Source of the DNA: Planctomycetota bacterium | GTDB lineage: Bacteria > Planctomycetota > UBA1135 > GCA-002686595 | Length of the DNA: 49,439 nucleotides | Assembly: GCA_002686595.1 (NCBI GenBank) | Contig: NYXZ01000093.1 | Location: 22,163-71,601 of the forward strand | Direction of reading: 5' to 3' | Shown here: positions 1,617 through 22,537 of the stretch, piece by piece | How the letters are laid out: each line of letters opens with the position of its first letter | How positions within the stretch are numbered: the stretch's first letter is position 1 | The notes under the pieces: model-generated | The model's input: the letters and a program-made list of their open reading frames with translations, nothing else | Databases searched by the model: none | What the model was told of the DNA's origin: nothing | Position numbers and translations under genes: made by a program

Positions 1617-4600
1617 ATGATCAAACTCCTCACAATCGGCCTGACCCTGACCCTTGGCCTGGCCAGCATGGGTCCGGCCCTGGCCCAAAACTCCACCTTT
1701 AAAAAGGGGGACACTGTCTGTTTGCTGGGCAATGCCCTGGCTGAGCGCATGCAACACGACGGGTTCCTCGAAGCCCTGCTGCAACTGCGACGCCCAGACC
1801 TGGCCCTTAGCTTTCGGAATCTCGGGTTTTCCGCGGACGAGCTAACTGTCCAGCAGCGCACGGCGGGCTTCGGCTCCTGGGATGAGCACCTGACGCACTG
1901 CGAGGCGGATGTGGTCTTCGCCTTTTTCGGCTTCAATGAGTCCTTTGCCGGCGAGGCCGGCCTGGCGGGTTTTCAGGCGGACCTGGCGGCGTTCATCGAA
2001 CACATCGGGACCCAACGCTACAACGGCCACGAGGCTCCGCGCCTCGTGCTCTGCTCCCCGCTCCCCCACGAGGACTTGGGCGATCCCAATCTGCCAGATG
2101 GCCGAGCCGCCAATCGCCGCATCGGCGCCTACGCCAAGGCCATGGAGGAGGTCGCGGCCAAGCAGGGAGTGACCTTCGTCGACCTGTTCACACCCCTGCA
2201 ACGCGCTCAGGCCAAGGCCAAACAGCCGTTCACAATCAATGGCATACACCCATCCTCGGTCGGTAACTGGTGGGTCGCCGAGCGCATCATCAACGCCCTG
2301 CTCGCTTGGGAGGGAGGGCCAGAACATCCCGAGCAGCTTGAGTCCATGCTGGCCGCCGTTCGCCACAAGAACCTCTTGTGGTTCAATCGCTACCGCGCCA
2401 CCGATGGCTACAACGTCTACGGCGGGCGCTCGTCCCTCAAGTACACGGACGATCAGAGCAACTTCACGGTGCTCCAACGCGAACTCCAGATTCTCGACGC
2501 CCTGTGTGCCCGGGAAGATGATCGCATCCATGCCATAGCCAGGGGCGAGGCACACGACAACATTTCGGGCCAAGTGCCCGAGCCGCTCCCGGTCATCACC
2601 AACCGGCCGGGCGAGGGAGCGGGAGGCGCACACATTTTCCGTGACGGACAGGAGGCCATCACGGCCATGACCCCGGCGGCGGGCTTTGAGATCGGGCTCT
2701 TCGCCGACGAGTTGGCCTTTCCGGAACTGGTCAACCCCGTCCAGATGGCCTGGGATACGCGCGGCCGCCTGTGGGTCGCGGTCTGGCCGACCTATCCTCA
2801 CTGGGCCCCGGGGACGCCCATGAACGACAAGCTGCTGGTCTTCGAGGACCTGGACGGTGACGGCCAGGCCGACACCTGCACGCCCTTCGCCAGCGACCTG
2901 CACAATCCCACGGGCTTTGAGTTCTGGAATGGCGGGGTATTTGTGGCGAACGCGCCCGATCTCCTGTTCCTGAAGGACAACGACGGTGATGGCCAGGCGG
3001 ACAGCCGCACGCGGGTGCTCCACGGCCTCAGCTCGGCCGATACGCACCACTCGGCCAACAGCTTTGTCCTCGGCCCCGATGGCGCCCTGTACTTCCAGGA
3101 AGGTGTCTTCCACCAAACACAGATCGAGACCATCCACGGCCCCATGCGCAACCACGACGGTTGTGTCTGGCGCTTCGAGCCACGCACCTGGCGGGTCGAG
3201 CGTTATGTGCCTTACAACTTCGCCAACCCCCACGGCCACGTCTTCGACGCCTGGGGCCAAGACTTTGTCACGGACGGCACGGGTAACAACAACTACTACG
3301 CCCTGCCGTTTTCGGGACATGCCGTGCACCCGCGCAAACGCTCCGGTGGTCTCTGGGGTCAGGGCAACAGCTACTTCACCTTCTTCCCCCAACGCAGCCG
3401 TCCCTGCGCGGCCACCGAGATCCTGTCCAGTGGTCTCTTCCCCGCGGAGAACCAGGGCAACTACCTGATCGCCAATGTGATCGGCTTCCAGGGCATCTTC
3501 CAGTACGAGATCGACGACGACGGCTCGGGCTTTTCCGCCACCGAGGTCGACCCCATCGTTCACAGCAGCGATCCGAACTTCCGCCCAGCGGACATCGAGA
3601 TGGGCCCGGATGGCGCGCTCTACTTCCTGGATTGGCACAACCCCCTCATCGGGCACATGCAGCACCACCTGCGCGATCCGAGCAGGGATGGTGAACACGG
3701 GCGCATCTACCGCGTCACACCCAAGGGCATGACCGCCGGCCTGCGGCCCATACCCATTGCCGGCCGCCCCCTGGATGAATTGCTCGAGTTGCTGAAACAC
3801 GGGGATGATCGCCTGCGCTATCGCGTCCGCATTGAACTCTCCGGACGCGACAGCGATCTGGTCAACGCCGCGGCCAAGGCCTTCCTGGCGCGCCTCGACC
3901 CGGCCTCCGCCAATTACGAACACGACCGACTGGAAGTCCTCTGGCTAACGCAACAACACAACCGGCCCGACGCAGGTCTCCTGGGCGATGTGCTGGCCTC
4001 GCCTGATCACCGCGCCCGGGCGGCGGCGGTGCGCGTGGCCCGCGGCCTGCGCCGTAGCCTTCCGCGCCCCCTCGATCGGTTGGCGCTGGCTATCGATGAT
4101 CCCCATCCCCGCGTGCGCCTGGAGGCCCTGGTGGCCCTCAGCTTCTTCGAAGATGTGCGCGCCGCGGAACTGGCCCTACGCGTCCTCGAACACCCCACGG
4201 ACCGCTTTCTCGAATACGCCCTGGCCCAGACCCTGGCCACCCTCGAACCCTTTTGGAAACCGGCCCTCGTGGGCGGCGACGGATTGCCCCGCACCGGAGA
4301 ACGGGGCTTGGCTCACCTGTTGAAAGGCCTCGACACAAACGACCTTGCTCGCGTCGCTGCGAGTCCGGCGGTCTGGACAGAACAACTGCTGCGCCCCGGT
4401 CTCGCACCCCAGCTCTACCTGGCCGCGGCCCAGGGCCTGGCCGCGCAACGGGCGCAGCGCGCGGGCCAGCTGCTGCTGGAGGCCATCCGCGCCTGTGACA
4501 GCGGCCAAGTAGACACCGGCGGCCACACCGACCATCTGCTCATGGGACTCTTCAGCGCCCTGGCCGAAGACCCAGCGGAACGCATGGCCTGTGCCGCCCA

Positions 4601-6551
4601 ACTGACAGAACTGGCCACCGGCGGCCAGCGGAGCGCGACGCGGCGCCTGGCGACGGTCGCCAGCCTGGGTAGTTCCGAGGCCGTGGAGACTCTTTGGGAA
4701 TCCGCCAGCCAGAGCTTCGGCGGTCTGGGCGACTTGCTCGACGCCCTGCCGCTGGTCGACGACCGCCACATCCTGGCCCAACTCAAGGAGCGCGTCTTCC
4801 CCCTGCTGCGCGATCCCCTCGTCACCCTCTCCATCGGCGGCCCGGCCCCAAAAGAAACGACCAAGGGACGCTTCGTGCGCCTGGAGCTGCCCGGCGCGGC
4901 GCGCACGCTGACCCTGGCGGAAGTTGAGGTCTTCAATCCCGGCGGGCGCAACATCGCCCCGGACGGCACGGCCAGCCAATCCACCCTGGCCCACGGCGGA
5001 GTCCCGCAGCGTGCCCTCGACGGCAATCGCAGCGGCGCTTGGGGCGACGGCAGCCAAACCCACACCATCGAGAACCGACCGGAACCCTGGTGGGAGCTGG
5101 ACCTGGGCACTGAACAGGAACTCGAGCGCATCGCCATCTGGGGGCGCACGGACAACGCCGCCTTGCGCGCCCGCCTGGACGGGTTTCGCGTGCGTGTCCT
5201 GGATCGAGCGCGCCGTACTGTATTTGAAGCGGTGGCGCCAGAGGCTCAAGCTGAACCGACCAGCTTCGACCTGAGCGCGCCGCAGTTGCGCATCAGGCGC
5301 GCAGCCGCCACAGCCCTGGGCACCATGGCAGCCGCAGGCGTGGCCACCGAGGAGATTGTCCAGGCCCTGGTGGAGTGCTTTCCCGATCCCGATCTTCAAC
5401 GCGCCAGCGGAGCAGCCCTGCGCGCCATTCCCTTGTCACATTGGCCGCAAACCGCACGCACACGGCTGGCCGAGACCTTGATCAGCATCTTCGAGACGAG
5501 CACTCCGGCGCAATACACAAGCGTCGCGGGACGCGAGCTGCTCTCCTTTGCCGCCGAACTTACAACCCAACTCCCCTGGGAGCTGGGCCGCCAGTTACGC
5601 GCGGGCTGCCGTCGCCTCGGGCCACAGATCCTGCTGCTGCGACCGGTGCCGGATGCCCTGCTCTACGATCGACGGGAACTGGTGGCCGTGGCCGGCCATC
5701 CGGTTGAGTTGGTCTTCGACAACGTGGACATCATGCCTCACAACCTGGTCGTGACCGCCCCCGGCGCCCTGGCCCGCGTGGGCCTGGCGGCGGAAGCCAT
5801 GGCTCAGGCGGAAGATGCCTGGGAGCGCGCCTTCGTGCCCGAACTGCCCGAGGTTCTGCAGGCCACTGGCCTGCTCCAGCCAGGTCAAAGCGAAACCCTG
5901 AGCTTCAATGCTCCGGCGAAACCCGGCGCCTATCCCTTCGTCTGCACCTTCCCCGGACACTGGGTGCGCATGAATGGCCTGCTGCACGTGGTAGCCACCT
6001 TCGAGGAACTCGACGCGCTCCAGTTGGAGGCCGCGGCGGCGGCCTATCCAGGACCGCAGGACAGCGCACGGGCCTTCGTCAAGAACTGGTCTCCAGCTGA
6101 TTTTCCCAGCATGGAGCTCGGCGAGCGAGCAGTGGACTCTGGACGCTCGGTCTTGGACGCCGCCTCCTGCCTGCGTTGCCACACAATTGACGGTATGGTG
6201 GATGAAGGCGGCACGACGGGACCAGAACTGACCGAAGTTGCGCGACGCCACGACCCGTTGCAGCTCCTGAATCACATCCTCGAACCCTCATCCACTATTC
6301 TCGAGGGCTACGAAACGGAGATCTTCATCACACACGACGGCGACATCATCGCCGGGCGCGTCCTGGAGGAAACCGCCACGACCGTGCTCGTGCGCGATGA
6401 CCCCTACCGGGAATTGGACCCCCTGGAGCTACCCCTCGCGGAAGTCACCGAGCGCGCCCCGGCGACGGTCTCCACCATGCCCAGCGGTCTGCTGAACACC
6501 TTCACCCGCGAGGAGATTCTGGATCTCATCGCTTTCCTCAAGTCCCTCTGA
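1617..6551 (+). CDS. Secreted mosaic cytochrome: SGNH-like, PVC propeller, HEAT, F5/8-like, cupredoxin and C-terminal heme domain
   Basis: A 1644-residue exported redox protein. Residues 1-23 are a signal peptide ending PALA. Residues 30-230 resemble an SGNH hydrolase (GDTVCLLGN, GFNES, NGIHPS), but Asn sits where the GDS serine would be, so esterase activity is doubtful. Residues 355-700 form a PVC-type beta-propeller with DGDG calcium-like loops. HEAT-like helical repeats follow at about 780-1060, an F5/8-type carbohydrate-binding-like domain at 1075-1215, and a cupredoxin at 1345-1460 with likely copper ligands in MPHN and CTFPGHWVRM. The C-terminus is a Pirellula/Verrucomicrobium-type heme domain with CLRCH near residue 1516 and a possible Met ligand in TMPSG. 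It probably binds a polymer or sugar and passes electrons through copper and heme in the periplasm or at the surface. The gene ends 9 bp before the next and may be co-transcribed with it. Confidence 0.9.
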   Translation: MIKLLTIGLTLTLGLASMGPALAQNSTFKKGDTVCLLGNALAERMQHDGFLEALLQLRRPDLALSFRNLGFSADELTVQQRTAGFGSWDEHLTHCEADVVFAFFGFNESFAGEAGLAGFQADLAAFIEHIGTQRYNGHEAPRLVLCSPLPHEDLGDPNLPDGRAANRRIGAYAKAMEEVAAKQGVTFVDLFTPLQRAQAKAKQPFTINGIHPSSVGNWWVAERIINALLAWEGGPEHPEQLESMLAAVRHKNLLWFNRYRATDGYNVYGGRSSLKYTDDQSNFTVLQRELQILDALCAREDDRIHAIARGEAHDNISGQVPEPLPVITNRPGEGAGGAHIFRDGQEAITAMTPAAGFEIGLFADELAFPELVNPVQMAWDTRGRLWVAVWPTYPHWAPGTPMNDKLLVFEDLDGDGQADTCTPFASDLHNPTGFEFWNGGVFVANAPDLLFLKDNDGDGQADSRTRVLHGLSSADTHHSANSFVLGPDGALYFQEGVFHQTQIETIHGPMRNHDGCVWRFEPRTWRVERYVPYNFANPHGHVFDAWGQDFVTDGTGNNNYYALPFSGHAVHPRKRSGGLWGQGNSYFTFFPQRSRPCAATEILSSGLFPAENQGNYLIANVIGFQGIFQYEIDDDGSGFSATEVDPIVHSSDPNFRPADIEMGPDGALYFLDWHNPLIGHMQHHLRDPSRDGEHGRIYRVTPKGMTAGLRPIPIAGRPLDELLELLKHGDDRLRYRVRIELSGRDSDLVNAAAKAFLARLDPASANYEHDRLEVLWLTQQHNRPDAGLLGDVLASPDHRARAAAVRVARGLRRSLPRPLDRLALAIDDPHPRVRLEALVALSFFEDVRAAELALRVLEHPTDRFLEYALAQTLATLEPFWKPALVGGDGLPRTGERGLAHLLKGLDTNDLARVAASPAVWTEQLLRPGLAPQLYLAAAQGLAAQRAQRAGQLLLEAIRACDSGQVDTGGHTDHLLMGLFSALAEDPAERMACAAQLTELATGGQRSATRRLATVASLGSSEAVETLWESASQSFGGLGDLLDALPLVDDRHILAQLKERVFPLLRDPLVTLSIGGPAPKETTKGRFVRLELPGAARTLTLAEVEVFNPGGRNIAPDGTASQSTLAHGGVPQRALDGNRSGAWGDGSQTHTIENRPEPWWELDLGTEQELERIAIWGRTDNAALRARLDGFRVRVLDRARRTVFEAVAPEAQAEPTSFDLSAPQLRIRRAAATALGTMAAAGVATEEIVQALVECFPDPDLQRASGAALRAIPLSHWPQTARTRLAETLISIFETSTPAQYTSVAGRELLSFAAELTTQLPWELGRQLRAGCRRLGPQILLLRPVPDALLYDRRELVAVAGHPVELVFDNVDIMPHNLVVTAPGALARVGLAAEAMAQAEDAWERAFVPELPEVLQATGLLQPGQSETLSFNAPAKPGAYPFVCTFPGHWVRMNGLLHVVATFEELDALQLEAAAAAYPGPQDSARAFVKNWSPADFPSMELGERAVDSGRSVLDAASCLRCHTIDGMVDEGGTTGPELTEVARRHDPLQLLNHILEPSSTILEGYETEIFITHDGDIIAGRVLEETATTVLVRDDPYRELDPLELPLAEVTERAPATVSTMPSGLLNTFTREEILDLIAFLKSL

Positions 6552-9928: not shown

Positions 9929-11590
9929 ATGACCATTCATACCATGAGCACTCTCTTCCGCTACCTCACCCACTCCGCCCTCTGGCTGTCCCTGGCATCC
10001 GCTGCCGCGGCCCAGGCCTCGTCGCCCTTCGAGGGCGTGATGCCCTTCCAGCCCCTGAGCTCCCATGACACTTACCTGCTGGAGATGGATGGCACCATCA
10101 GCCACACCTGGCCTGGCACCCACGCCCCAGGTCAAGCCATTTACTTGAACGACGCTGGCAATCTGGTGCGCACCATCAAGACCAACAGCTTCAACGGAGG
10201 TGCCGGCGGAGGTATTCAGGAGGTTGCCGACGACGGCACTACCATCTGGGAGTTCATCTACGATGACCCCACGCATCTCTCCCACCACGACATCGCGCTC
10301 ATGCCCAACGGAAACATCCTGATGATCGCCTGGGAGTTCATGACATCAAACGATGCGGTCGACGCCGGACGCAATCCGAATCTCGTCGCCGGCTCCACCT
10401 TCGCCGCGGACTCTGTCATCGAAATCGCTCCCAACGGCACCGGCGGCGCCGACATTGTCTGGGAGTGGAGAGTCTGGGATCACATCATCCAGGATTACGA
10501 CGCCGACAAACCAAACTACGGCGCCATCGACCAGCACCCGGAGCTGATCAACTTGAACTACCCGCCCACGGTCCCCGGCCAGGGCGATTGGAATCACATC
10601 AACTCAATCGACTACAATGCTGATCTGGACCAAATCCTGTTGAGCAGTCACGGGCAGGACGAGATCTGGATCATCGACCACAGCACGACGACCGCCGAGG
10701 CCGCTGGACACAGCGGCGGTGACCAGGGGCGCGGCGGTGATCTGCTCTATCGCTGGGGCAATCCGCGCGCCTATCGCCACGGCGCACCGTCACAGAGAAA
10801 ACTCTTCGGCCAGCATGACGCCCAGTGGATCGCAGACGGACTGTCCGGCGCAGGCGACATCTTGCTCTTCAACAACGGCGCTGGACGCCCAGCCGGGCAG
10901 TTCTCGACCATCGACCAGTTCACGCCCCCGTTGGACGCCAGCGGCGGTTACAGCTACACCGCCGGCACCGCCTATGGCCCCACAGCGCTCTCCTGGTCCT
11001 ACACCGATCCCAATCCGAATGACTTCTACTCCGGCTTCATCTCAGGCTGCCAGCGCCTGCCAGGCGGCACGACCCTTGTGTGCTCCGGCGGCCAGGGCTG
11101 GTTCTTCGAAGTTGATGACGCCGGCACCCTCATTTGGGAGTACTTCACCAGCAACACATTCAAGATTCGCCGTTACGGCACCTGTGACGCCCCCACAACC
11201 TATTGCTCCACCGCTCCGAACTCCGCCGGCAGCGGTGCGCTGATCGGCAGCAGCGGCAGCACCAACATCAGCGTGGGCGACTTCGCCCTCTCCGTGACCG
11301 ATGCTCCCGCGAACACGCCGGGGATTTTCTACTTCGGCACGGGCCAGGCCTCTGTGCCGTTCGGAGATGGATTCCGCTGCGCCACAGGCACCCTCTCACG
11401 CCTCTCAGTACTTTTCACCGATGCGTCCGGTTCCGGCATCTATCCCTTGGATTTTACTGACGCCAGCTCCCCGGCAGGATCTCTGTCGGCCGGCGACACA
11501 CGCTACTTCCAGTTTTGGTTCCGCGACAATGCCTTCGGCGGCGTCGGCTACAACCTCTCGGACGGACTATCGGTCACGCTCTGTAACTAG
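9929..11590 (+). CDS. Secreted arylsulfotransferase-like propeller protein with shared C-terminal tail domain
   Basis: A 553-residue exported protein. The N-terminus is a signal peptide (MSTLFRYLTHSALWLSL, then ASAAAAQA). A second ATG at 9944 is an equally good start. Residues 35-410 form a propeller like arylsulfate sulfotransferases and related ASST-like proteins. Typical segments are TYLLEMDGTISHTW, LSHHDIALMPNGNILMIAWE, NHINSIDYNADLDQILLSS and QHDAQWI. The conserved His residues in those loops are compatible with the ASST active site, but the exact catalytic His cannot be assigned here. From about residue 420 to the end is a separate domain that starts with TYCSTAPNSAGSGALIGSSG and ends YNLSDGLSVTLCN. 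It is shared with the proteins encoded at 20415-22247 and, more distantly, 15290-17059. It probably acts outside the cytoplasm; the sulfate acceptor is unknown. Confidence 0.82.
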   Translation: MTIHTMSTLFRYLTHSALWLSLASAAAAQASSPFEGVMPFQPLSSHDTYLLEMDGTISHTWPGTHAPGQAIYLNDAGNLVRTIKTNSFNGGAGGGIQEVADDGTTIWEFIYDDPTHLSHHDIALMPNGNILMIAWEFMTSNDAVDAGRNPNLVAGSTFAADSVIEIAPNGTGGADIVWEWRVWDHIIQDYDADKPNYGAIDQHPELINLNYPPTVPGQGDWNHINSIDYNADLDQILLSSHGQDEIWIIDHSTTTAEAAGHSGGDQGRGGDLLYRWGNPRAYRHGAPSQRKLFGQHDAQWIADGLSGAGDILLFNNGAGRPAGQFSTIDQFTPPLDASGGYSYTAGTAYGPTALSWSYTDPNPNDFYSGFISGCQRLPGGTTLVCSGGQGWFFEVDDAGTLIWEYFTSNTFKIRRYGTCDAPTTYCSTAPNSAGSGALIGSSGSTNISVGDFALSVTDAPANTPGIFYFGTGQASVPFGDGFRCATGTLSRLSVLFTDASGSGIYPLDFTDASSPAGSLSAGDTRYFQFWFRDNAFGGVGYNLSDGLSVTLCN

Positions 11591-11616
11591 CCCGGGACGC
11601 CCCGTACATTTGGCGG

Positions 11617-14600
11617 GTGCTGCCCGTCCTCCTGACCCTCGCCTGCCTCTCCGCCCAAGGCGGCGGCATCGCCATCGACCCCCTGGCTAACGGTCTCAGT
11701 GATTGGGAAGGGGACAAGCGCTATTGGAGCCTGGAGGAAGGCGTGCTCACCGGGCGCAGCACAGCTGAACTGCCCTGCGACGAAACGACGTACCTGACCT
11801 GGCTCGGAGGCGATGTGACCGACTTCGTCCTGCGGCTCGAGTTCAAGATCGAAAGCGGCAACTCCGGGATTCAATTCCGCAGCGAACGTGGACCGGGCTT
11901 CGAACTACTCGGCTACCAGGCCGACCTTGAGGCCGGTGAAACCTGGACCGGGGGGCTCTACGAAGCCGGTGGCCGGGCCGTTCTCGGGCAACGCGGTCTG
12001 CGCGTTATTTTGGACCCCGACGGAAGGCGGCGCTTCGAACCTCTGACACCAGAAGCCGTGGAGGTGGGTCGGGATGTAGCTGGCGAATGGCACGAGTACA
12101 CCGTGCGAGCGGTGGGACAACGCATCGAACTCACGATCGATGGAGTTCTGACCTGTGATGTCCTGGACAACGATTTGGCGCACTCGAGCCGGCACGGCCT
12201 AATCGGGCTACAGCTCCACCAGGGCCCACCCATGAGCGTTTCCTTCCGCAACATCCGCATCCTGCGGCTCGACCCCGCGAGGCGGCGGGAAAAGATAGAA
12301 AGCGGTGAGTTCAACCTGCCTCATTGGATCTGGCTGCCCGGCGAGCCAGCCGCGGACCAGGAAATGTGGACGCGTCAGAGCATTGACCTGGGCGACTTGG
12401 AGGATGGCAGTCGCGCTACGCTGAGTGGCAGCTGCGACAATGCGGCCAAGGTGTTCATAAACGGCAATGAAGTGATCGATTGGGAAGAGTGGTGGACGCC
12501 CTTTCGTCTGGATGTAACTGAACACCTGCTGCCAGGCGTCAATCAACTGGAAGCCTGGGGTTGGAATGAGAGCGGCCCCGCTGGTCTCTGGCTCGAACTC
12601 TCGTTGCAGCGGGCGGAGGACAGCAATGAGAAGTGGTTCACCACCGAAACCTGGCCGGTGACCGACCGCCGGCCACCTGACTGGCCGGATTCAATGCCAG
12701 TAAAGGCAGATGATGGTTCGCAACGGTGGCGCATTGCCGAGGACCATGGCGCGCTCGGCGCCGATCCTTGGGGATCGCAACTGGGCTTTCTCGACGAGCG
12801 CCTGCCGGATGTGCTCCCAGCTGCTGATCTCCTGCTACCGGATGGATTCGCCGCCGAGCGCATCTACTCCGTGCCCCTGCGCCGCCAGGGCTCCTGGGTG
12901 GCCTTGGCCATGGATGGAGCCGGTCGCATCTACGCCTCCTCACAACACCGGGACATGTACCGCCTGACCGTGCCCCCCCTCGGCGAGAGCGGCCCGGTCC
13001 ACGCCACGAAACTAGAAGTCGACATCGGCCCGGCCCAAGGATTGTGCTGGGCTTTCAATTCGCTGTACGTGGTTGTCGCCGAAGGCAAGCAGACGGGCCT
13101 GTGGCGCCTGCGCGACCTCGACGGAAACGACACGCTGGAAGATGCCCAGCTGCTAAAGGCCTTTGATGGAGAAGGCGAACACGGCCCCCATGCCGTTGTT
13201 CCCGGGCCGGACGGAACATCCCTGTATGTCATCGCCGGGAATCATGTGGCCCTGCCCGAGAATCTCGCACGCCGGCGCCCAGCACCCCTGTGGGGCGAGG
13301 ACCAACTGCTCACCAGGCGCGCCGACCCCAATGGCCACGCCGTCGGCATCCGCGCTCCCGGCGGTTGGCTATGCCGAACTGACGAAGATGGAAAAGACTG
13401 GGAGTTGATCGCCATCGGCTTGCGCAACTCATACGACCTGGCCTTCAACGCCGAGGGGGAAGCCTTCACTTTTGACTCTGATATGGAGTGGGACATCGGG
13501 TTGCCCTGGTACCGCGCCCCGCGCATCCTGCACCTGGTCTCGGGGGCCGAGTTCGGCTGGCGCCACGGCTCGGGTAAATGGCCCACTCATTATCCGGACA
13601 GCCTGCCGGGCATCGCCGACTCGGGCCTGGCTTCCCCCACCGGCGTCACCTTCGGCTACAACACATCGTTTCCCGAGCCCTATCGTTCTTCGCTCTTGGT
13701 GGCCGATTGGGCCTACGGCACGCTCCAGGCAGTAACGCTCACACCTCAGGGCTCAACCTACACCGGCGACTTCATGCCCTTTGCCTCGGGCCGCCCATTC
13801 CCCGTGGCAGACATGACCGCGGGCCCCGATGGCGCCCTCTATGTAGTTACCGGAGGGCGCCACACCCATTCGGCCATCTATCGTATCTGGCACGAGGCCG
13901 GTCGCGCGGGCCAGGAAACGCAACCCGTTGAGGACGACGCGGCCAGCAAGTTGCGCCACTTGCGGCGCGCCCTCGAAGCTCGCCACCGGCAAGGAGCAAC
14001 GCCAGTTCCCTGGGAATACCTCTCCCATCCGGATCGCTTCATCGCCCATGCCGCGCGCGTTGCCCTTGAACACTGTCAAGTGCTGGAGTGGGCCGACCGC
14101 GCCCTTTTGGAAGACGACTTGGCCACGGCCCTGCCCGCCCTCTTGGCCCTCACGCGAGCAGCCGCTGACAGCCACGGCGAGCGCATCCACCAGAGGATTT
14201 CGGAGCTCCCCTGGGATAGCCTGGAGCAATTAGAGCTCTTGCCCTGGCTGCGCCTGCTCGCCCTAGCTGACATCCGTGCCGGTTCTCCACCAGCGAAACT
14301 GCACGCCACTCGACTGGCGCGCCTGGAGGCTCTCTTCCCCACTGCACATCCCCTGGTCAATCGCGAGCTGGCCAATCTACTCGCCCGGTACGGAAGCAAC
14401 GCACTCGCTCGCCAAGCGGTTGACCTGCTGACTTCTTCGCCGAGTAGCGAGGACCAGATACACATGGCCCTGGTTCTGTCCCAGGTGAAAACAGGTTGGA
14501 CCCTGCCCCTGCGCCGTCGCTACTTTCAGTGGCTCGACAAACAGGCGGAAGCAATGACGGGTGGCGCCAGCCTGGAACTCTACCTCGACGGAATACGCGA

Positions 14601-15183
14601 GGACGCGCACGCCGCGCTTCCTCCGGAACTCGCCCAGCATCCAGATCTCCTGCTATCCGCCCCCAGCTCGACGGCAGAAGCAAGCCGCCATTCCGCGCCC
14701 TTTGTACAGCATTGGACAAAAGCGGAGCTCGCTCCCCACCTCGTGCAACTGAAGGCACCCCGCGACCTGGCGGCTGGCAAGTTGGCCTTCGAGCTGGCTA
14801 CCTGTCTCGAATGTCACCGCTTTGAGGGCCGTGGGGGCGCCACAGGCCCGGACCTGACTGGCGCCGGAGCGCGCTTCGCGCCCCGGGATCTACTCAACGC
14901 CATCCTGGCGCCCTCGGACGAGGTGTCTGATCAATACCGGGAGACCATGGTGCGCACAACTGACGGGGCCATTCTGATCGGACGCGTAGAGGCAGAAGAC
15001 GAGTTCGGTCTGATCCTGCGTCCTTCCGCGCCCAACTCCGAGCCAATCCTGATCGAAGCAGATGAGTTGGATCTACGCACACCCAGCCGCATCTCCCGCA
15101 TGCCAACGGAGCTGCTCGACTGCCTGACCCTGGAACAGGTGCTCGACTTGCTGGCCTATGTCCTCTCCGGGACCACGGACTAG
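11617..15183 (+). CDS. Secreted DUF1080 / propeller / cytochrome c mosaic protein
   Basis: An 1188-residue protein read from GTG at 11617; the first 15 residues form a short signal peptide (LPVLLTLACLSAQ). Residues 20-205 are a DUF1080 (3-keto-disaccharide hydrolase-like, LamG-fold) domain with NSGIQFRSE and GGLYEAGG. Residues 225-330 look like a galactose-binding beta-sandwich (AKVFINGNEVIDWEEW). Residues 410-760 are a PVC-type glucose-dehydrogenase-like propeller with GLRNSYDLAFN and GAEFGWRHGSGKWP. HEAT-like helices lie at about 770-1020. A planctomycete-type heme domain with CLECH is near residue 1063, with a possible Met ligand in RMPTELL. Such proteins are thought to couple periplasmic sugar oxidation or binding to electron transfer; this is inference. 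Its TAG stop is part of the CTAG tip of the palindromic repeat at 15180-15293. Confidence 0.87.
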   Translation: MLPVLLTLACLSAQGGGIAIDPLANGLSDWEGDKRYWSLEEGVLTGRSTAELPCDETTYLTWLGGDVTDFVLRLEFKIESGNSGIQFRSERGPGFELLGYQADLEAGETWTGGLYEAGGRAVLGQRGLRVILDPDGRRRFEPLTPEAVEVGRDVAGEWHEYTVRAVGQRIELTIDGVLTCDVLDNDLAHSSRHGLIGLQLHQGPPMSVSFRNIRILRLDPARRREKIESGEFNLPHWIWLPGEPAADQEMWTRQSIDLGDLEDGSRATLSGSCDNAAKVFINGNEVIDWEEWWTPFRLDVTEHLLPGVNQLEAWGWNESGPAGLWLELSLQRAEDSNEKWFTTETWPVTDRRPPDWPDSMPVKADDGSQRWRIAEDHGALGADPWGSQLGFLDERLPDVLPAADLLLPDGFAAERIYSVPLRRQGSWVALAMDGAGRIYASSQHRDMYRLTVPPLGESGPVHATKLEVDIGPAQGLCWAFNSLYVVVAEGKQTGLWRLRDLDGNDTLEDAQLLKAFDGEGEHGPHAVVPGPDGTSLYVIAGNHVALPENLARRRPAPLWGEDQLLTRRADPNGHAVGIRAPGGWLCRTDEDGKDWELIAIGLRNSYDLAFNAEGEAFTFDSDMEWDIGLPWYRAPRILHLVSGAEFGWRHGSGKWPTHYPDSLPGIADSGLASPTGVTFGYNTSFPEPYRSSLLVADWAYGTLQAVTLTPQGSTYTGDFMPFASGRPFPVADMTAGPDGALYVVTGGRHTHSAIYRIWHEAGRAGQETQPVEDDAASKLRHLRRALEARHRQGATPVPWEYLSHPDRFIAHAARVALEHCQVLEWADRALLEDDLATALPALLALTRAAADSHGERIHQRISELPWDSLEQLELLPWLRLLALADIRAGSPPAKLHATRLARLEALFPTAHPLVNRELANLLARYGSNALARQAVDLLTSSPSSEDQIHMALVLSQVKTGWTLPLRRRYFQWLDKQAEAMTGGASLELYLDGIREDAHAALPPELAQHPDLLLSAPSSTAEASRHSAPFVQHWTKAELAPHLVQLKAPRDLAAGKLAFELATCLECHRFEGRGGATGPDLTGAGARFAPRDLLNAILAPSDEVSDQYRETMVRTTDGAILIGRVEAEDEFGLILRPSAPNSEPILIEADELDLRTPSRISRMPTELLDCLTLEQVLDLLAYVLSGTTD

Positions 15184-15293
15184 GGGTCCGTTGAAAAAGT
15201 CCCGTCGCGAGGCAATGCCATCGGCGGCGAGCCTGACGCCGCATCGCCGACGGTGGCAAAGCCGCGGTAGGGAGTTTTTCAACGGGCCCCTAG
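15180..15293. repeat. Dispersed palindromic repeat, copy 1 (CTAG-tipped), likely bidirectional terminator
   Basis: The element begins CTAGGGGTCCGTTGAAAAAG and, read from the other end, CTAGGGGCCCGTTGAAAAAC, so the ends are inverted repeats of about 24 bp with two differences. The interior carries CGTCGCGAGGC and an ATCGGCGGCGAG segment also present in copy 2 at 26092-26284. It fills the whole gap between two convergent genes, and the CTAG at each tip supplies the TAG stop codon of both. The A/T tracts next to GC-rich stems would suit termination in both directions. This is not a transposase-bearing element. Confidence 0.8.
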
Positions 15294-17059
15294 AGACAGA
15301 AGAACACTTCGACGCCGTTCGTCAAACCAACCCCCGTGCCGTCGGGATGGGCTGGATCGCGGAACCAGGTCTGGAAGCACCAGCTAGTGCCCACCATGGC
15401 CGGAACGACCGGAACTCCCTGGCTGACATTTCCATTGGCATCGAGCACCACTACGCCCATGCGAACGAGGGGCGGCGCCACCAGCAATGTGCCTCCGAAG
15501 AGCGCTATCGATGCGCGGTTGTCCCCGTGAAAGACCATCGCGTATTGATTGGGGATACCACAGGCGGCAATGAGCTCGAAGTCATTGGCCGTCAAGGAGG
15601 CCGTGCCGTACCACCCGAGGACCGCTTCGGTTCCCAATGAGGTCAGCTTGCCCGAGCCATAGGCCTCCGGATCTTGGCAACCGGCCTCGATCAGAATCGG
15701 GTAGGGCGTCAGGGGTAGCGCTCCCGGGTCCATCTCGCTGATGGCCTGATTGCCAGCGGCATCCGGCACAACTTCGGTGACGGTCACGACGGAGGAAGTG
15801 GCCTCCGTTAGGTCGTAGGTCGCTGTCCCAGTCGCATCATCACACCACGCCACCCAGCGTCGCACGACACCTGTTCCCGTGGTGATATCAAAGCGGTAAA
15901 CCCAAAGCCCACCGGCTCCTGCGGACAGAGCCGTACAGGCTTCTACATCGGCGAGCTTGCTCGCGTAGAGACCATAGGACGCGTATGACAGCACGGGATC
16001 ACCCGCTGACTTGCGCAAGCCGAAGCCACTCCAGGTGTAGTTGGGGGCTTCGCTAGAGGAGAACCAAGTGTGCCAGTAGAGCGCATCGGCCCCCTGACCC
16101 GCCGCCACACTGAACTTGCGGAAGACATCAGCCGCCTGTTCTTCCTGGGACCCATTGGGCGAGTGCGGAGGATTACTGGACGGTAAATAGGAACTGCCGA
16201 GCTCCGTGACCCACATGGGTTTGTTGTCCTCGCCATAGCTGGCGAGCATGGCATTCAGGTACGCCATGGCGGAATAGAGCAGCTCCCAACTGTCGTAGTG
16301 GTGACAGTTGTAGACATCAATCGCGCTGCTACCGCCGGCGACGATGACATCCTCCAGCCAATCCGTGTGGTTGTAGAAAACCTGATCGACGGTTCCTGCG
16401 ATTCCACCCAGCACCACTTGATTGTCGGGATCGACGGCCTTCAGTTCATCGGCGCAGACGGCTAACAGATCCGCATAGAGGGCGGCTGAGTAGCTCCCAT
16501 AGGCAGCGACCTCATTGGCGATCTCCCAATAACGCACCTCGCCCAGGTAGCGCTCGGCGGTGACGCGCACATAACCCCGCACCTTGGCCTCGACGACGGC
16601 CACATTGACGTCCAAGATTTCGCCGTCCGGCGTATAGAGCCTGGTGGCATCCGGCGCCCCTGCTCCCACTGCCATGTCACCACCGATTTGAAACAGCGTC
16701 GGCACCATGGCGATGCCGTAGACATTGCGGATGGACTGATCTGGGTTGGTGAAATCATAGGAAGCCGGGTCGTCATAGGCGCCGCCCTGGTAGATCTCCC
16801 ACCAAGACACATCCGCTCCGGCTACCTGGCGAATCGTACGGCAGCCCAGGTCCAGCAGATCGGGCATGACCTCATCCACCTCGTCCCAGTCCGTATTCAC
16901 CGCCGCCCCACCGAAGCGCACAAAATTCAGCCCCAGGCGGCTCTCGGCTTCTTGCAGGGCGTCAGCGGAGGGGGCGCAAAACAAAAACATGACGCCCAGG
17001 CCCGGAACCCATGTCAGCCAACACCCCCCATGTTGAATCGCAGTTTCGGTCGTGTTCAT
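15290..17059 (-). CDS. Secreted clan-A (GH39/GH5-like) glycoside hydrolase with C-terminal tail domain
   Basis: A 589-residue protein with an N-terminal hydrophobic export segment at about residues 12-34 (WLTWVPGLGVMFLFC). Residues 40-375 read as a (beta/alpha)8 glycosidase. The pattern YWEIANE places a candidate acid/base at Glu183, and MWVTELGSS places a candidate nucleophile at Glu286. The roughly 100-residue spacing and the N-E context are typical of retaining clan-A enzymes such as GH39, GH5 or GH30. HHYDSWE and ALYWHTWFSS agree with barrel strands. A beta-sandwich follows at 380-450 and a C-terminal tail domain at about 456-589 (ending GVEVFFCL), a divergent relative of the tails at 9929-11590 and 20415-22247. 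The substrate is unknown. The stop codon comes from the CTAG tip of the adjoining repeat. Confidence 0.8.
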   Translation of the reverse strand: MNTTETAIQHGGCWLTWVPGLGVMFLFCAPSADALQEAESRLGLNFVRFGGAAVNTDWDEVDEVMPDLLDLGCRTIRQVAGADVSWWEIYQGGAYDDPASYDFTNPDQSIRNVYGIAMVPTLFQIGGDMAVGAGAPDATRLYTPDGEILDVNVAVVEAKVRGYVRVTAERYLGEVRYWEIANEVAAYGSYSAALYADLLAVCADELKAVDPDNQVVLGGIAGTVDQVFYNHTDWLEDVIVAGGSSAIDVYNCHHYDSWELLYSAMAYLNAMLASYGEDNKPMWVTELGSSYLPSSNPPHSPNGSQEEQAADVFRKFSVAAGQGADALYWHTWFSSSEAPNYTWSGFGLRKSAGDPVLSYASYGLYASKLADVEACTALSAGAGGLWVYRFDITTGTGVVRRWVAWCDDATGTATYDLTEATSSVVTVTEVVPDAAGNQAISEMDPGALPLTPYPILIEAGCQDPEAYGSGKLTSLGTEAVLGWYGTASLTANDFELIAACGIPNQYAMVFHGDNRASIALFGGTLLVAPPLVRMGVVVLDANGNVSQGVPVVPAMVGTSWCFQTWFRDPAHPDGTGVGLTNGVEVFFCL

Positions 17060-17301
17060 CCTATTATCCTATGCCATGTAGAGGATATGGGCGGCCCCAA
17101 TCGCCGCCTTGCCCGCCGCCTGTCCAGCCCAACGGGCACACCAAGTCACGGCCCAGTCACGATTCCGACGCCGAAGTGGCATCCATTGCCAGCGCCGGGA
17201 GATGCCTGCTAGGATGAGCGGCCCTCCGCCGTGCCGCGGCCGCAGCCCATGCCCCTCCACCACCTGGCCCCCACTCACCGCATGAGCAGCACCGCGATCC
17301 G

Positions 17302-18108
17302 GTGCTGGGCAGCGCGCGCCCACTGACCTTGGATCCGCGCTCACGACGGCTGCTGCTGGCCATGCTGGTCGGCGCTTTCTGCCTCCAGACCTGGCTGATC
17401 TACTCGGATCCAATCGGACGCGAGCACCCGCCCCTGTCCGCCGCCGCCACCCGGGGCCGCGCCCTCTACCATTCCCACAACTGCCAGAGCTGCCACCAGA
17501 TTTTCGGCTTTGGCGGCTTCTTGGGGCCGGACCTGACTAACTTGGCGCGCCGGCGCGGGGACACCGAGAGCCTGGCCCGCGACCTGACACAAATCCTGAC
17601 CACCGGCTCGGAGCGCATGCCGGCCTTCAAACTCAGCGACGGCGAACGCTCAGACCTCGCGAGCTTCTTCACGGAACTAGACCGACTGGGCGTGGGCCAG
17701 GTGCGCATCACGGAAACACCTCCGGCCAAGGATATCTTCAAGACCCTGATCGCCGAATACGCACAACACGACCCCCTGACCCCCGAGGCCGCAGAGGGAC
17801 TGTGGCTCGTCGAGCAAGCCGGCTGTATCAACTGCCACCTGCCCAACGGTCGCAGTACCTTCGCCGCCACGGATCTCACCAAGTTGCACTCCCAGTTGAG
17901 CGAAGACCAGCTGCGCAGCGTGCTGACCGAGGGCATTCCAGAGAAGGGCATGCCCGCCATGAAACTGCAGCCCACCCAATTCGAATCGCTGCTGGCCTTC
18001 TTGGCCTGGCTGGACCGACAGGGCCCCGACCTGCGCCAGGGCTTCCACGACGCTGAGAACGCCTCCGGCGGCTCTCTGCTGGACCTCCCCTGGTTCGAGT
18101 ACCGTTGA
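17302..18108 (+). CDS. Membrane-anchored diheme cytochrome c, NorC-like partner of the downstream oxidase
   Basis: A 268-residue protein read from GTG at 17302; no in-frame ATG precedes the membrane anchor. One N-terminal transmembrane helix (residues 13-32, LLLAMLVGAFCLQTWLIY) anchors it with two periplasmic cytochrome c domains. The first has CQSCH near residue 60 followed by FGFGGFLGPDLTN, the loop pattern of NorC-type cytochromes. The second has CINCH near residue 174. Possible axial Met residues are in ERMPAFKL and KGMPAMKL. Classical NorC carries one heme, so the second domain is an extension. It ends 2 bp before the ATG of the NorB-like gene, so the two form a transcription unit. It likely feeds electrons to that catalytic subunit. 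Confidence 0.85.
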   Translation: MLGSARPLTLDPRSRRLLLAMLVGAFCLQTWLIYSDPIGREHPPLSAAATRGRALYHSHNCQSCHQIFGFGGFLGPDLTNLARRRGDTESLARDLTQILTTGSERMPAFKLSDGERSDLASFFTELDRLGVGQVRITETPPAKDIFKTLIAEYAQHDPLTPEAAEGLWLVEQAGCINCHLPNGRSTFAATDLTKLHSQLSEDQLRSVLTEGIPEKGMPAMKLQPTQFESLLAFLAWLDRQGPDLRQGFHDAENASGGSLLDLPWFEYR

Positions 18109-18110
18109 CC

Positions 18111-19541
18111 ATGCAGCCCCTGCCCAAAAACGGCTCACTTGTCCGCGCCGAGCGCATGCAGTTGACGCTCATGGCCAGCGCCCTGGCCTGCCTGGCCCTC
18201 AGCCTGCTCTTCGGTTTCCTAGCTGCTCTCTACTACATCCCCGGCCTCTCGGCCCGGGCTGTCAAGGCCGGCATCAGCCTGGTTCAACTGCGCCCCCTGC
18301 ACACAACCTTCGCCTCCGGCTGGCTCTTCCTCGGCGCCGTCACCGCTGTTCACAAATACCTGGCCGATGAGTTCGGCACGCCCACCAACGGCGAGGCCCG
18401 GCGCTTCCGCCTCCAGATGATCCTCTGGGGCTTGGCGGGCCTGGCCGCCATCATAACCCTGCCCCTCGGCATCACATCAGGGCGGGAATACGTCGGCTTC
18501 CACCCGAGCATCTCGGCCCTGATCGCCGCCGGCTGGCTGCTCTTCGCCTGGACCTTCTTCGCCCGCGTCGGCCCCGGTTTCTTCCGCCGTCCGGTTTATG
18601 TCTACATGTGGGCCGCGGGCATCCTGTACTTCCTGTACACCTTCGCCGAGGCCCATGCTTGGCTGCTGGATGGCATTTGGAAACGCCCCGTCGCCGACCT
18701 GCAGATTCAATGGAAGTCCTGCGGAGCCCTGGTGGCCGCCTTCAACCAGATGGTCTACGGCGGCCTGACCTATTTCGGCGCGAAGCACTCCGGCGATGAA
18801 CGCATTGGCCATTCACGCACGGCCTTTGCCCTCTTCGGCGTGGGCCTGCTCAACTCCCTCACCAACTACGCTCACCACACCTACCACCTGCCCCAGTCCC
18901 ACTCCATCAAGTGGATCGCCTTCGCGGTCAGCATGCTGGAGATCATTCTCCTGTTACGCTTGCTGCAGGAAGTCAGCAGCGCCCTGCGCAATCGCCGTCG
19001 CCCGCTCTGGGAACGGGTCAACATCACCGAGCGCTTGACCGCTCTGGCAAAGCACTGGAACGTCTTCCTGCTGACCCTGGCCCTGGCCATCTCCGTCCCG
19101 CCCTGGAATGCATTGATCCACGGCACCCATGTGGTCATGGCCCACGCCATGGGTTCGGAGCTGGCCATCGACACCTACATCCTGCTGGGGCTCTTTGCCT
19201 GGGTGCTGGTCACAATCTTCCCCAAGCGTGAAACACAACTGCGCATCATCCACTCGCCGCGCGTGGCGCGCGCCATCCTGGGCCTCAATCTGTCATTGAT
19301 CGGGCTCGTGACCACGCTCCTAATCAGCGGCCTGACCACCGGCGTCCAGCGTGCCCTCGGCCAACCCATGCCCCACTGGCTGGATTACTTCCCCTACGGC
19401 CTCCTGCTCTTCGGCAGCGGCGTGGCGCTTTTCCTGATGGTCATCCTCCTCACCTGGCTGCCACTCTTCCGGCGGCCCGCGGCACACAAGAGCTGGGACC
19501 TGGGCACGGATCCACTGCCCACGCCGCCGCCCCCGCACTAA
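18111..19541 (+). CDS. NorB-like heme-copper oxidase superfamily catalytic subunit (putative NO reductase)
   Basis: A 476-residue, about 12-helix membrane protein of the heme-copper oxidase superfamily, closest to nitric oxide reductase large subunits. I chose the ATG at 18111; TTG at 18105 overlaps the upstream stop. Expected ligands are His64 (RPLHTTFASG, low-spin heme), His182 (AEAHAWLLDGIW), the His255/His256 pair (NYAHHTYHL) for the active-site metal, and His345 in HGTHVVMAHAMG for the high-spin heme. Two points are atypical: the residue two after His345 is Met, where usual family members have the second low-spin-heme His, and the acidic residue after the first metal His is Asp187 at +5 rather than Glu at +4. 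It may reduce NO or, less likely, O2. It is paired with the diheme cytochrome upstream. Confidence 0.82.
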   Translation: MQPLPKNGSLVRAERMQLTLMASALACLALSLLFGFLAALYYIPGLSARAVKAGISLVQLRPLHTTFASGWLFLGAVTAVHKYLADEFGTPTNGEARRFRLQMILWGLAGLAAIITLPLGITSGREYVGFHPSISALIAAGWLLFAWTFFARVGPGFFRRPVYVYMWAAGILYFLYTFAEAHAWLLDGIWKRPVADLQIQWKSCGALVAAFNQMVYGGLTYFGAKHSGDERIGHSRTAFALFGVGLLNSLTNYAHHTYHLPQSHSIKWIAFAVSMLEIILLLRLLQEVSSALRNRRRPLWERVNITERLTALAKHWNVFLLTLALAISVPPWNALIHGTHVVMAHAMGSELAIDTYILLGLFAWVLVTIFPKRETQLRIIHSPRVARAILGLNLSLIGLVTTLLISGLTTGVQRALGQPMPHWLDYFPYGLLLFGSGVALFLMVILLTWLPLFRRPAAHKSWDLGTDPLPTPPPPH

Positions 19542-19556
19542 ACGCGCCACCTGACA

Positions 19557-20186
19557 ATGAGCGAGGAGCTGACCCCCGCCAGCGAATGCCGCTTTGAACC
19601 GCCGCCCATCAAGGGTTCGCGCTTCATCGCCCATCTGGCCCCCGCCGCAGATGAAGACGAAGCCCGTTCCGTGCTTGCGCGCCTGGCACAGGAGTTCTCC
19701 GACGCGCGCCACATCTGTTGGGCCATGCGCATCGGCAACTCAACACGCCCGGGCTTTCTTGAGCGTGCCAACGACGACGGTGAGCCCTCGGGTTCCGCGG
19801 GTCGCCCGATCCTGGCCCAGCTCGAAGGGCACGGTGTCACCGACGCCGTGGCTGCCGTGGTGCGCTATTTCGGAGGCGTGAAGCTCGGCGTCGGTGGCCT
19901 GATGCGCGCCTACGGCGGAGCCGCCGGCCAGTGCCTGGACCGCATGCCCACGCGCGCCATCGTGCGCCTGTGCCGCTTGACCCTGAACTTCGCCTGGGAT
20001 CAGTCAGGCGTCGTTGAAGCCCTGCTGGCGGCGGAGCACATCAACCCCCTCTCGGCGGACTACGGCGAGGCCGTCGAACTAGTGATCGAGTTTCCCGAAG
20101 CCGAACGGCAACGCCTGACCGGCGCCCTCATGGATTGCACCGCCGGTAGAATCAACCTGAAGGCCACTGCGGAAGCAGATAGCTGA
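19557..20186 (+). CDS. yigZ: YigZ/IMPACT family protein (UPF0029)
   Basis: A 209-residue cytoplasmic protein of the YigZ/IMPACT family. The UPF0029 domain covers residues 10-125 and holds the family hallmarks KGSRFIAHLAPA, DARHICWAMRIG, NDDGEPSGSAGRPI and VVRYFGGVKLGVGGL. Residues 140-205 correspond to the DUF1949 ferredoxin-like second domain. Members are linked to translation control and ribosome-associated stress; the bacterial role is not settled. It begins 15 bp after the oxidase gene and may share its transcript, though no functional link is evident. Length and motifs are complete, and the identification is secure. Confidence 0.9.
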   Translation: MSEELTPASECRFEPPPIKGSRFIAHLAPAADEDEARSVLARLAQEFSDARHICWAMRIGNSTRPGFLERANDDGEPSGSAGRPILAQLEGHGVTDAVAAVVRYFGGVKLGVGGLMRAYGGAAGQCLDRMPTRAIVRLCRLTLNFAWDQSGVVEALLAAEHINPLSADYGEAVELVIEFPEAERQRLTGALMDCTAGRINLKATAEADS

Positions 20187-20414
20187 CAGAATCACCACGA
20201 CCAGGAACTGGTCGCGCCTATCTGCACCCAACGCTCCAGCCAGTCTGCCGCGGATCATCTTCGATGAACGAGCTCTGGCGGCCACCTTCCTAGCTGTTGC
20301 TCTGAGCCTGCTGGCTATCCGTGCGGCGCCGCCCTTCCCCGAGGGTGAAGGTGGCGGAGCTCAGCCCTGAAGCATGGATAGTCGTCTCATCCGCAGAAGT
20401 GCCTCCGACCCCAA
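20187..20414. other. Convergent spacer with a possible gene remnant
   Basis: The gap lies between yigZ and a convergent gene. On the plus strand an open frame from 20161 to 20370 contains RALAATFLAVALSLLAIRAA, which looks like a single transmembrane helix, preceded by basic residues. No ATG, GTG or TTG lies in frame upstream of it. It may be the N-terminal remnant of a lost membrane-anchored protein, or chance. No terminator with a T-run was found. Confidence 0.3.
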
Positions 20415-22247
20415 TCAGGGGCAGAAATCCACCTGCAGGCCATCGGAGAGGTTGTAGCCCGCGCCTCCAGCAATCGCATCGCGGTACCAAAACTGGAAGT
20501 ACCAGCGCGCTCCAGGAAGGAGCTGCCCGGCGCCGGACCCCGCCGGAGGGGAGGAGAAGTCCAGCGGGAAAGCGGCGTCACCGATTCCATTTGTCTGAAT
20601 CGGATGGAAGCGGAAGAGGCCCGCTCCGCCACTGCCCACACAGCGGAAGCCGTTGCCAAAGGCCTGGTTGGCGCTGGCGCCGCCGTAGTAGAAAACGCCC
20701 CACTGCTGCGCAGGTGTGCCGGCCACCGTCAGCACGAAATCCTCCGCCGCCACACTAGTCGTTCCACTGGAACCAATCGTCGCGCCGGCCCCGGCGGAGT
20801 TGGCGGCGCCAGTGCAGTAGTTGCTGGTGCCCCCGGCACAGGAACCGTCTCCCAGGGTTCCGTCGGCTTGAACATTCTGGGCGTAGATATCCCCCATGTC
20901 CGAACGGCGGTCGGTCCAGGCGACGCGCAGCATGTCATCAGCGCCCATCACGCCACGGATCTCGCTCTTGTCCGCTGCCACATCCGAGGCCGTAACGATG
21001 CCGCCCCAGGGCGATGAACCATCTTCGAGCAGGCGCACAACGCCCACCTCCACATGGAAAAGTGTGACGATATCCATGAACACCGCGGCTACGCCATCTT
21101 GGGTCAGAATCGCCCGCGGCTGGTATTCCATGTTGCCCCCCACCGGCGCCACCTCGAGTCCGGCAGCTCCCCACAGGCGCTGGCCGGTGCGCGAAATGCG
21201 TTGGGCGGTGAGCCCAACATTGGCGCCGCCGCCGTCCTTCTCGGTGTAGAAGAAGTATGTGTCTCCGGTGGCCGTGTTGTGGGCCATGGACGGATCCACC
21301 ATCTGGCGCCCGGCTTCGATGGAGATGGGCATGCCGTCGGTTCCGAACAGCTCTGTGCCCGTGGCGTCTAGGTGTTGGAAACGACTGACATTTGTACCGC
21401 TCTCCGAAGCGTACCAGGTGATCAGGGCGCCGCCGGAACCATCCGCCTCCATGCGCGGCCAAGCCATGGACGGCAGGCCGGCCAGATCGTAGACCACCGT
21501 GGGATAGCTCCCCCACTGGGGGTTGGCCAGGCCATCGAACTTCTGAGCGTACACATGGGCAATCGCCGTGCTGGAAATGTCGCGGACCCACGAAAGGATG
21601 AAACCATCACCGGGAGTGGCCACTACATCCGGGTATCCGGGTCGCTCGTTTGTCGAGGCACTGGCGGGCACGCCTCCGGCGCCGTACAGCTGGTTACCTG
21701 ACGGCATCACGCGCTGCACGAGGATGTCGCCATCTCCCGTGCTCTGCAGTTGGTGATACCAGGCGAACAGGAAGTCGCCAGAGCTCAGCTCCGTAACCGC
21801 CGGTTGGCCGTCGAAGTCATCATCTGAAATGAGCGTCACACCGTCCGGCCCCCAGAGCATGCTGCCATCGGGCGCCACGCGGTAGGCGAACATGTCCATG
21901 TCCCAGCCTGAACGCCCGTCGGCAATTACCAACACCGCATTGCCGGAAGAGTCGCAGAGCATGTCCCAGTCGGTCAACCAACCGGACTGGGGATGGGTGC
22001 TGATGGCGATCCCATTATGGGGAAACATCTCATTTCCAGCCGCGTCAAGCCGTTGCAGGTAGAGATCGAAGTTCCCGCTGTGCTTGTCAAACCACCCGAT
22101 GTAGGTGCTGCCGTCCGGCGCCTGGGCCATGCGCGTCATGGTTTGCTGGTTGTTGGCGTCACAGACGGCCAGATTGGCCCCGGGGTCCGATGACCATTGG
22201 GCGAAGGCGGGCATGGAAAGCAGGCTGAGAACGAGAAAATGTCGCAT
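20415..22247 (-). CDS. Secreted propeller-like repeat protein with shared C-terminal tail domain
   Basis: A 610-residue exported protein. The frame is open to 22421, but the ATG at 22247 gives a clean signal peptide (MRHFLVLSLLSMPAFA) and is preferred. Residues 20-465 contain repeats around patterns such as GWFDKHSGNFDLYLQRLD, FAWYHQLQSTGDGDI, LITWYASESGTNV and AWTDRRSDMGDIYAQN. These W-x-D-x-R and D-I-Y-A-Q blades are known from secreted, probably propeller-forming proteins of planctomycetes and Bacteroidetes. Residues 474-610 are the tail domain (NYCTGAANSAGAGATIGSSG at the start, YNLSDGLQVDFCP at the end), closely matching the tail of the arylsulfotransferase-like protein. No enzymatic motif was recognised; a surface-binding or adhesive role is a guess. 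Confidence 0.78.
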   Translation of the reverse strand: MRHFLVLSLLSMPAFAQWSSDPGANLAVCDANNQQTMTRMAQAPDGSTYIGWFDKHSGNFDLYLQRLDAAGNEMFPHNGIAISTHPQSGWLTDWDMLCDSSGNAVLVIADGRSGWDMDMFAYRVAPDGSMLWGPDGVTLISDDDFDGQPAVTELSSGDFLFAWYHQLQSTGDGDILVQRVMPSGNQLYGAGGVPASASTNERPGYPDVVATPGDGFILSWVRDISSTAIAHVYAQKFDGLANPQWGSYPTVVYDLAGLPSMAWPRMEADGSGGALITWYASESGTNVSRFQHLDATGTELFGTDGMPISIEAGRQMVDPSMAHNTATGDTYFFYTEKDGGGANVGLTAQRISRTGQRLWGAAGLEVAPVGGNMEYQPRAILTQDGVAAVFMDIVTLFHVEVGVVRLLEDGSSPWGGIVTASDVAADKSEIRGVMGADDMLRVAWTDRRSDMGDIYAQNVQADGTLGDGSCAGGTSNYCTGAANSAGAGATIGSSGTTSVAAEDFVLTVAGTPAQQWGVFYYGGASANQAFGNGFRCVGSGGAGLFRFHPIQTNGIGDAAFPLDFSSPPAGSGAGQLLPGARWYFQFWYRDAIAGGAGYNLSDGLQVDFCP

Positions 22248-22537
22248 GGGGCTCTGGGGGTTAGGGGATCCTCTGAGATCGATTCTGTGTGAGGTTTGGT
22301 GTTTCCGCAAGGTCACCAGGTTCCAAGCAAAAGTGATATGTGCCTCGGAGGTGCAACGCCCTATCGCTTGCACAGCCCAACGTCCGGCCCTCCACCGCTC
22401 GTTACAGCCGTTAGGCAGCACCTTATTAACTACCCCTCACACACAGATGAACCGCATCAAGCGCCATATGGCGGCCATATCACCTGCTGCCTGTTTCCCA
22501 CTGCTCGCCCACACCGGGATGGGCTTTGGCCCCGATA

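Follow-up and report, generated by a model that had tools for sequence, protein, structure and literature searches.

The three tail-bearing proteins encoded in the 49,439-nucleotide stretch of planctomycete DNA that we analysed (the window) end in members of one family of C-terminal domains, here termed T1. T1 is a tail of approximately 130 residues that matches 79 times in the genome from which the window comes, far more than the three proteins in which the first-pass annotation had noticed it. Relatives poor in T1 carry a second tail, T2, at the same place on the same kinds of protein. Neither was described in the literature searched, and T1 and T2 are two undescribed tail families. Because T1 is conserved across unrelated exported cargo, is C-terminal and can be replaced by another domain, it is best read as a tag for a shared recogniser. 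Judging from the sequences and the predicted structures, we would put at about even the chance that T1 is a shared, interchangeable address or anchor tag for a large exported proteome, acting through a common envelope or surface receptor.

Three proteins in the window carry related tails

The three open reading frames lie at the coordinates first assigned to them and are listed with their tails in Table 1. The Pfam match in carrier 2 is to a glycosyl hydrolase catalytic core, and carrier 3, otherwise unassigned, gave only weak matches of the beta-propeller type. A longer frame of carrier 3 opens at 22421; its likely start is the MRHFLVLSLLSMPAFAQ at 22247.

Table 1. Tail-bearing proteins of the window, with their signal peptides and tails
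Feature	Position	Strand	Basis
Carrier 1, arylsulfotransferase-like (ASST) protein, 553 aa	9929..11590	+	Pfam PF05935, E=9.4e-25
Carrier 1, signal peptide (MTIHTMSTLFRYLTHSALWLSLASAAAAQ)	9929..10015	+	Inspection of the sequence
Carrier 1, T1 tail from upstream Cys (GTCDAPTTYC) to stop	11183..11590	+	Searches, alignments, Cys analysis
Carrier 2, glycosidase-like protein, 589 aa	15290..17059	-	Pfam PF11790, E=7.4e-6
Carrier 2, divergent T1 tail (GCQDPEAYG ... GVEVFFCL)	15290..15679	-	Similarity; AlphaFold pLDDT 95.1
Carrier 3, repeat protein, likely start 22247	20415..22247	-	ORF reading
Carrier 3, signal peptide (MRHFLVLSLLSMPAFAQ)	22197..22247	-	Inspection of the sequence
Carrier 3, T1 tail from upstream Cys (GSCAGGTSNYC) to stop	20415..20840	-	Alignments; AlphaFold model m3d5998e627e6

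The tails of carriers 1 and 3 had been reported to align clearly, and we found them to be 49% identical over 133 residues (BLASTP E=1e-33), with all of the motifs originally quoted for them present. The glycosidase tail, proposed as a divergent version, is indeed a relative: it was recovered with E=2.3e-7 and 29% identity when the genome, translated in six frames, was searched with protein 1, and with E=3e-7 and 28% identity when compared with the repeat protein by BLASTP. Its AlphaFold model shows the all-beta layout of the other T1 tails. A comparison of this tail by hhalign was circular, as the tail is itself a row of the alignment used, and was left out of the evidence.

Elsewhere in the window, positions 1617-6551 encode a 1644-aa protein combining GDSL lipase, DUF7133, HEAT, F5/8 type C and copper-binding domains, without a T1 tail. 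At 17302-19541 there is a c-type cytochrome followed by a membrane protein with no Pfam match at E<=0.001, an order that recalls NorC/NorB-type pairs.

T1 is abundant in one family and sits at the extreme C-terminus

The genome of origin (G000) is a MAG of 3.38 Mb in 150 contigs, 86% complete, and the T1 profile was built from nearly all of its copies. T1 is present in 62 to at least 150 copies in each of seven other genomes of the same family, so that eight of the 11 family genomes sampled lie in this range; the other three have one copy. At E<=1e-5 the profile matched in 35 of 294 Planctomycetota genomes. In other planctomycete families T1 is rare and divergent, and C-terminal in every copy looked at; it was absent from the plasmid and phage collections searched.

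The figures for position, signal peptides and cargo that follow derive from a single MAG and from a set of relatives that is biased. In the genome of origin 71 of 77 near-complete instances (approximately 92%; a few of the 77 are counted twice through overlap of the fetched stretches) stop 0-2 residues before the end of the protein. In related planctomycete MAGs 97 of 99 complete copies at 80 loci are C-terminal, as are all 18 of the divergent or distant copies that were read. No tandem copies were seen among those read. The exceptions in the genome of origin are three intact FGE-sulfatase proteins and one hydrolase with T1 immediately behind the signal peptide, a metallo-beta-lactamase-like protein (by reading) in which T1 is internal, with a lamin-tail-like stretch behind it, and an FGE copy with a frameshift. 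N-terminal T1 was also found on an FGE-sulfatase protein in a related MAG and on a beta-helix protein. Placement at the extreme C-terminus of proteins with signal peptides, as originally claimed, thus holds with a minority of N-terminal and internal copies, and no stand-alone cytoplasmic T1 protein was seen.

The FGE-sulfatase cluster with T1 right after the signal peptide (L081:7997-16291, on contig C102 of G000; L086; L107) recurs in another genus. A copy in C102 and a fragment in C32 are apparently frameshifted or truncated.

Signal peptides, called by a simple and crude rule, were found on 51 of 58 T1 carriers (88%) against 33 of 62 untailed ORFs (53%; Fisher p=5e-5). A stricter rule was dropped after it passed over obvious signal peptides. 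The cargo is varied: 64 carriers from the genome of origin fall into 33 clusters, and Pfam domains on T1 carriers include reprolysins, matrixin, M14, M64, C25, S8, amidase, FG-GAP and LamG among others, with ASST as well. Some carriers have CBM_56 or LamG partners, 7 of 58 contain GBD_T9SS_assoc (for example L045), and one is a C25 peptidase with a propeptide.

T1 is predicted to be a disulfide-stapled beta-sandwich

From an alignment of 87 sequences AlphaFold returned an all-beta model of about ten strands (pLDDT 95.9, pTM 0.89), and on this model the T1 fold is a confidently predicted Ig/FN3-like beta-sandwich. Foldseek similarity was weak and was to Ig/FN3-like and carbohydrate-binding proteins; the best PDB match had E=2.3e-3, TM by query length did not exceed 0.48 among the 50 matches listed, and the PDB and viral sets held nothing at E<=1e-3. 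Pfam and NCBIfam contained no family for T1 when 87 tails were scanned, with no Pfam match beyond chance. A PDB sequence profile search gave no credible relative; its matches, mostly antibody chains, were judged to be chance likeness between beta-sandwiches. It can be seen that no known catalytic domain was found for T1 in Pfam, NCBIfam, the PDB or by Foldseek.

Across unrelated cargo a G, an R and a D are invariant, and a Q, a W and an R are conserved in more than 90% of copies. The first-pass annotation had also pointed to paired cysteines, and covariation over 179 copies bears this out. C3 and C61 are both present in 160 copies and both missing from 15, with 4 and 0 mixed; a Cys just upstream of T1 and the terminal Cys (C129) are both present in 113 and both missing from 33, with 30 and 3 mixed, although the Fisher p-values for such pairs (p=3e-15 for the latter) overstate significance because the 179 sequences are related. 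We conclude that T1 has two predicted disulfides, one of which would link both ends of the domain. The C3-C61 pair has been lost from the glycosidase tail, which retains the upstream and terminal Cys; the N-terminal FGE copies are without the end-joining pair.

A second tail occupies the same slot in T1-poor relatives

ASST orthologues in T1-poor members of the family end in T2, a different domain of similar length with the consensus LGSxSGTxPG ... PLNxDxYF ... SNxVxLxxxP and no conserved Cys. Virtually every T2 copy read finishes at the stop or close to it, and the domain had no match in Pfam or NCBIfam. The T2-bearing ASST proteins are 45-50% identical to that of the window, and in the ASST tree they group with the T1-bearing proteins in a single clade (100/98) that excludes the tailless paralogues, one of which (C8) is present in the window's own genome. 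The repeat protein of the window likewise has a T2-bearing homologue (36.6% over 476 aa, E=2e-93), as do other T1 cargo families; for the glycosidase no homologue was found in ten T1-poor genomes. T2 is thus like T1 in place, approximate length, cargo families and bacterial family, and unlike it in its consensus without conserved Cys and in the lack of demonstrable homology. The hhalign probability for the two was 0.7%, and we leave homology unclaimed because the alignment, in which the C-terminal halves fall in register, lacks significance.

Table 2. Copies of the two tails in 16 related genomes
Genome	T1	T2	Group
G000 (window)	79	0	T1-rich
G294	at least 150	4	T1-rich
G295	62	5	T1-rich
G296	72	1	T1-rich
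G297	at least 150	0	T1-rich
G298	107	1	T1-rich
G299	132	2	T1-rich
G306	105	1	T1-rich
G155	6	78	T1-poor
G259	2	17	T1-poor
G303	7	20	T1-poor
G229	0	18	T1-poor
G054	1	5	T1-poor
G300	1	8	T1-poor
G301	1	2	T1-poor
G302	1	5	T1-poor

Copy numbers of T1 and T2 are complementary (Table 2; Spearman -0.63 over the 16 genomes, a value that ignores phylogeny and includes counts given as at least 150), with T2 reaching its highest number in G155. If tails stayed with their cargo, cargo homologues in other MAGs would be expected to carry the most similar tails; over 37 pairs of cargo homologues the mean relative rank of the tail was 0.35, and 12 of the 37 were in the top tenth. By this comparison cargo homologues often appear to carry a non-matching T1 variant; part of this may be due to a short domain having become saturated and to the other MAGs having been sampled incompletely. 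The ASST proteins with T2 in T1-poor genomes provide a clearer case of tail exchange. What is conserved is the C-terminal slot; the domain that occupies it differs.

An ASST homologue of G300 (L199) has a degenerate T2-like end that neither the T1 nor the T2 profile recognises. G300, G301 and G302 have few T1 and few T2 copies, and therefore a further tail class may exist.

Possible roles of the tails

Under the reading of T1 as an address or anchor tag, Sec would carry the cargo across the inner membrane, and the tail would fold in the oxidising compartment, stapled by its disulfides. One common receptor at the envelope or surface, either a protein or a glycan, would recognise the tail, and the recognised protein would be delivered to, or held at, the cell surface. 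Selection would keep the C-terminal slot and not the exact domain, with T2 filling it in sister lineages. We infer both the existence of the receptor and the outcome, whether sorting or retention. Surface retention is slightly favoured over a strict C-terminal export signal because a few T1 copies are N-terminal or internal. It counts against the tag reading that beta-sandwich modules borne by exported enzymes frequently bind glycans or serve a structural purpose.

We consider it doubtful that T1 serves as a CBM- or FN3-like accessory module for ligand binding, tying diverse extracellular enzymes to one common polymer outside the cell, for example glycans of algae or marine snow. Exported bacterial enzymes carry FN3/Ig-like and carbohydrate-binding modules that T1 resembles in its predicted beta-sandwich and weak Foldseek similarity, and its conserved W, Q, R and D, its not absolutely fixed position and the CBM_56 and LamG partners of some carriers would all suit binding of a ligand. 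However, modules of this kind commonly occur inside the protein, at its N-terminus or in tandem arrays, whereas more than 90% of T1 copies lie within 2 residues of the stop in near-absolute C-terminal placement, with no tandems seen and no Pfam CBM, FN3 or Ig match among 87 tails. Moreover, peptidases, FG-GAP propellers and an ASST have no obvious polymer in common.

Another system with which T1 invites comparison is type IX secretion, whose C-terminal domains (CTDs) are found on Sec-exported cargo of many kinds, in many copies per genome, and comprise more than one class, Type A being an Ig-like beta-sandwich (PMC4804311, PMC12618676). T1 is like these CTDs in its C-terminal position, varied Sec cargo, high copy number and, going by the predicted structure, probably the general kind of beta-sandwich, and unlike them in its length of ~130 aa, two predicted disulfides, strong sequence conservation and occasional N-terminal or internal copies. 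The original observation that the sequence differs from type IX tails was supported: the models TIGR04183 (Type A) and TIGR04131 (Type B) and their Pfam equivalents matched none of 87 tails at E<=0.1, and TIGR04183 matched nothing in the genome of origin, with a Bacteroides control positive. SprA models found nothing in the genome of origin or in 149 Planctomycetota, the control being silent as well, and PorV was not found in the genome of origin, with three weak sub-threshold matches within the family. We do not claim membership of type IX for T1, because the CTD models do not match and the translocon was not found (control silent).

It is nevertheless conceivable, if unlikely, that T1 is a strict C-terminal signal for outer-membrane translocation by an unrecognised type IX-like machine, with T1 and T2 as CTD classes comparable to Types A and B of Bacteroidota. 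A Sec signal combined with a precisely C-terminal Ig-like sandwich on many cargo types, and the co-existence of both tail classes in some genomes, would agree with this, as would the GBD_T9SS_assoc and C25 carriers, which are cargo types familiar from type IX secretion. Against it stand the lack of SprA matches (control silent), the weak sub-threshold PorV matches and the N-terminal and internal T1 copies. These copies do not fit a strict C-terminal signal. The suggested resemblance to sorting or anchoring domains is partly supported, through placement, paired Cys and the predicted kind of fold. The best reading of the analogy is that T1 would work like type IX CTDs without being a member of them.

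PEP-CTERM with exosortase and GlyGly-CTERM with rhombosortase also place a C-terminal tag on many unrelated exported proteins and are expanded in certain lineages (PMC1569441, PMC3237569), features that T1 shares. However, those tags are short and tripartite, with a transmembrane helix and a basic end; the folded, all-beta T1 has neither of these and ends in FCP, FQP or similar. Exosortase (PF09721) was absent from the genome of origin, which is 86% complete, and four of the six T1-rich relatives tested lack it as well; on this distribution it was rejected as the partner of T1.

That T1 is a folding or stability cap shielding exported C-termini from proteolysis, with no specific partner, is very improbable: the predicted disulfide between the upstream Cys and C129 would tie the domain ends together and T1 is indifferent to cargo identity, but specific polar residues are conserved over unrelated cargo more strongly than a passive cap would need, and the same cargo has tailless paralogues (the C8 ASST).

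Returning to the tag reading, we tentatively suggest a wider possibility, to which we give rather less than an even chance: marine Planctomycetota may have an undescribed addressing system whose shared envelope machine or receptor serves approximately 100 or more exported proteins in each genome by way of interchangeable but mutually unrecognisable tails, T1 and T2, lineages having exchanged one class for the other across the same cargo. Little is known of how planctomycetes position their very large exported proteomes, and tails that occur on up to approximately 150 or more exported proteins per genome, interchangeable on the same cargo, offer a concrete handle on it, usable as pull-down bait for the receptor and as an annotation rule for exported proteins. 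The T2-rich genome G155 (6.9 Mb) is near-closed in 2 contigs, its six T1 matches being mostly weak; with its 78 T2 copies a test system may therefore exist, if the lineage is cultured.
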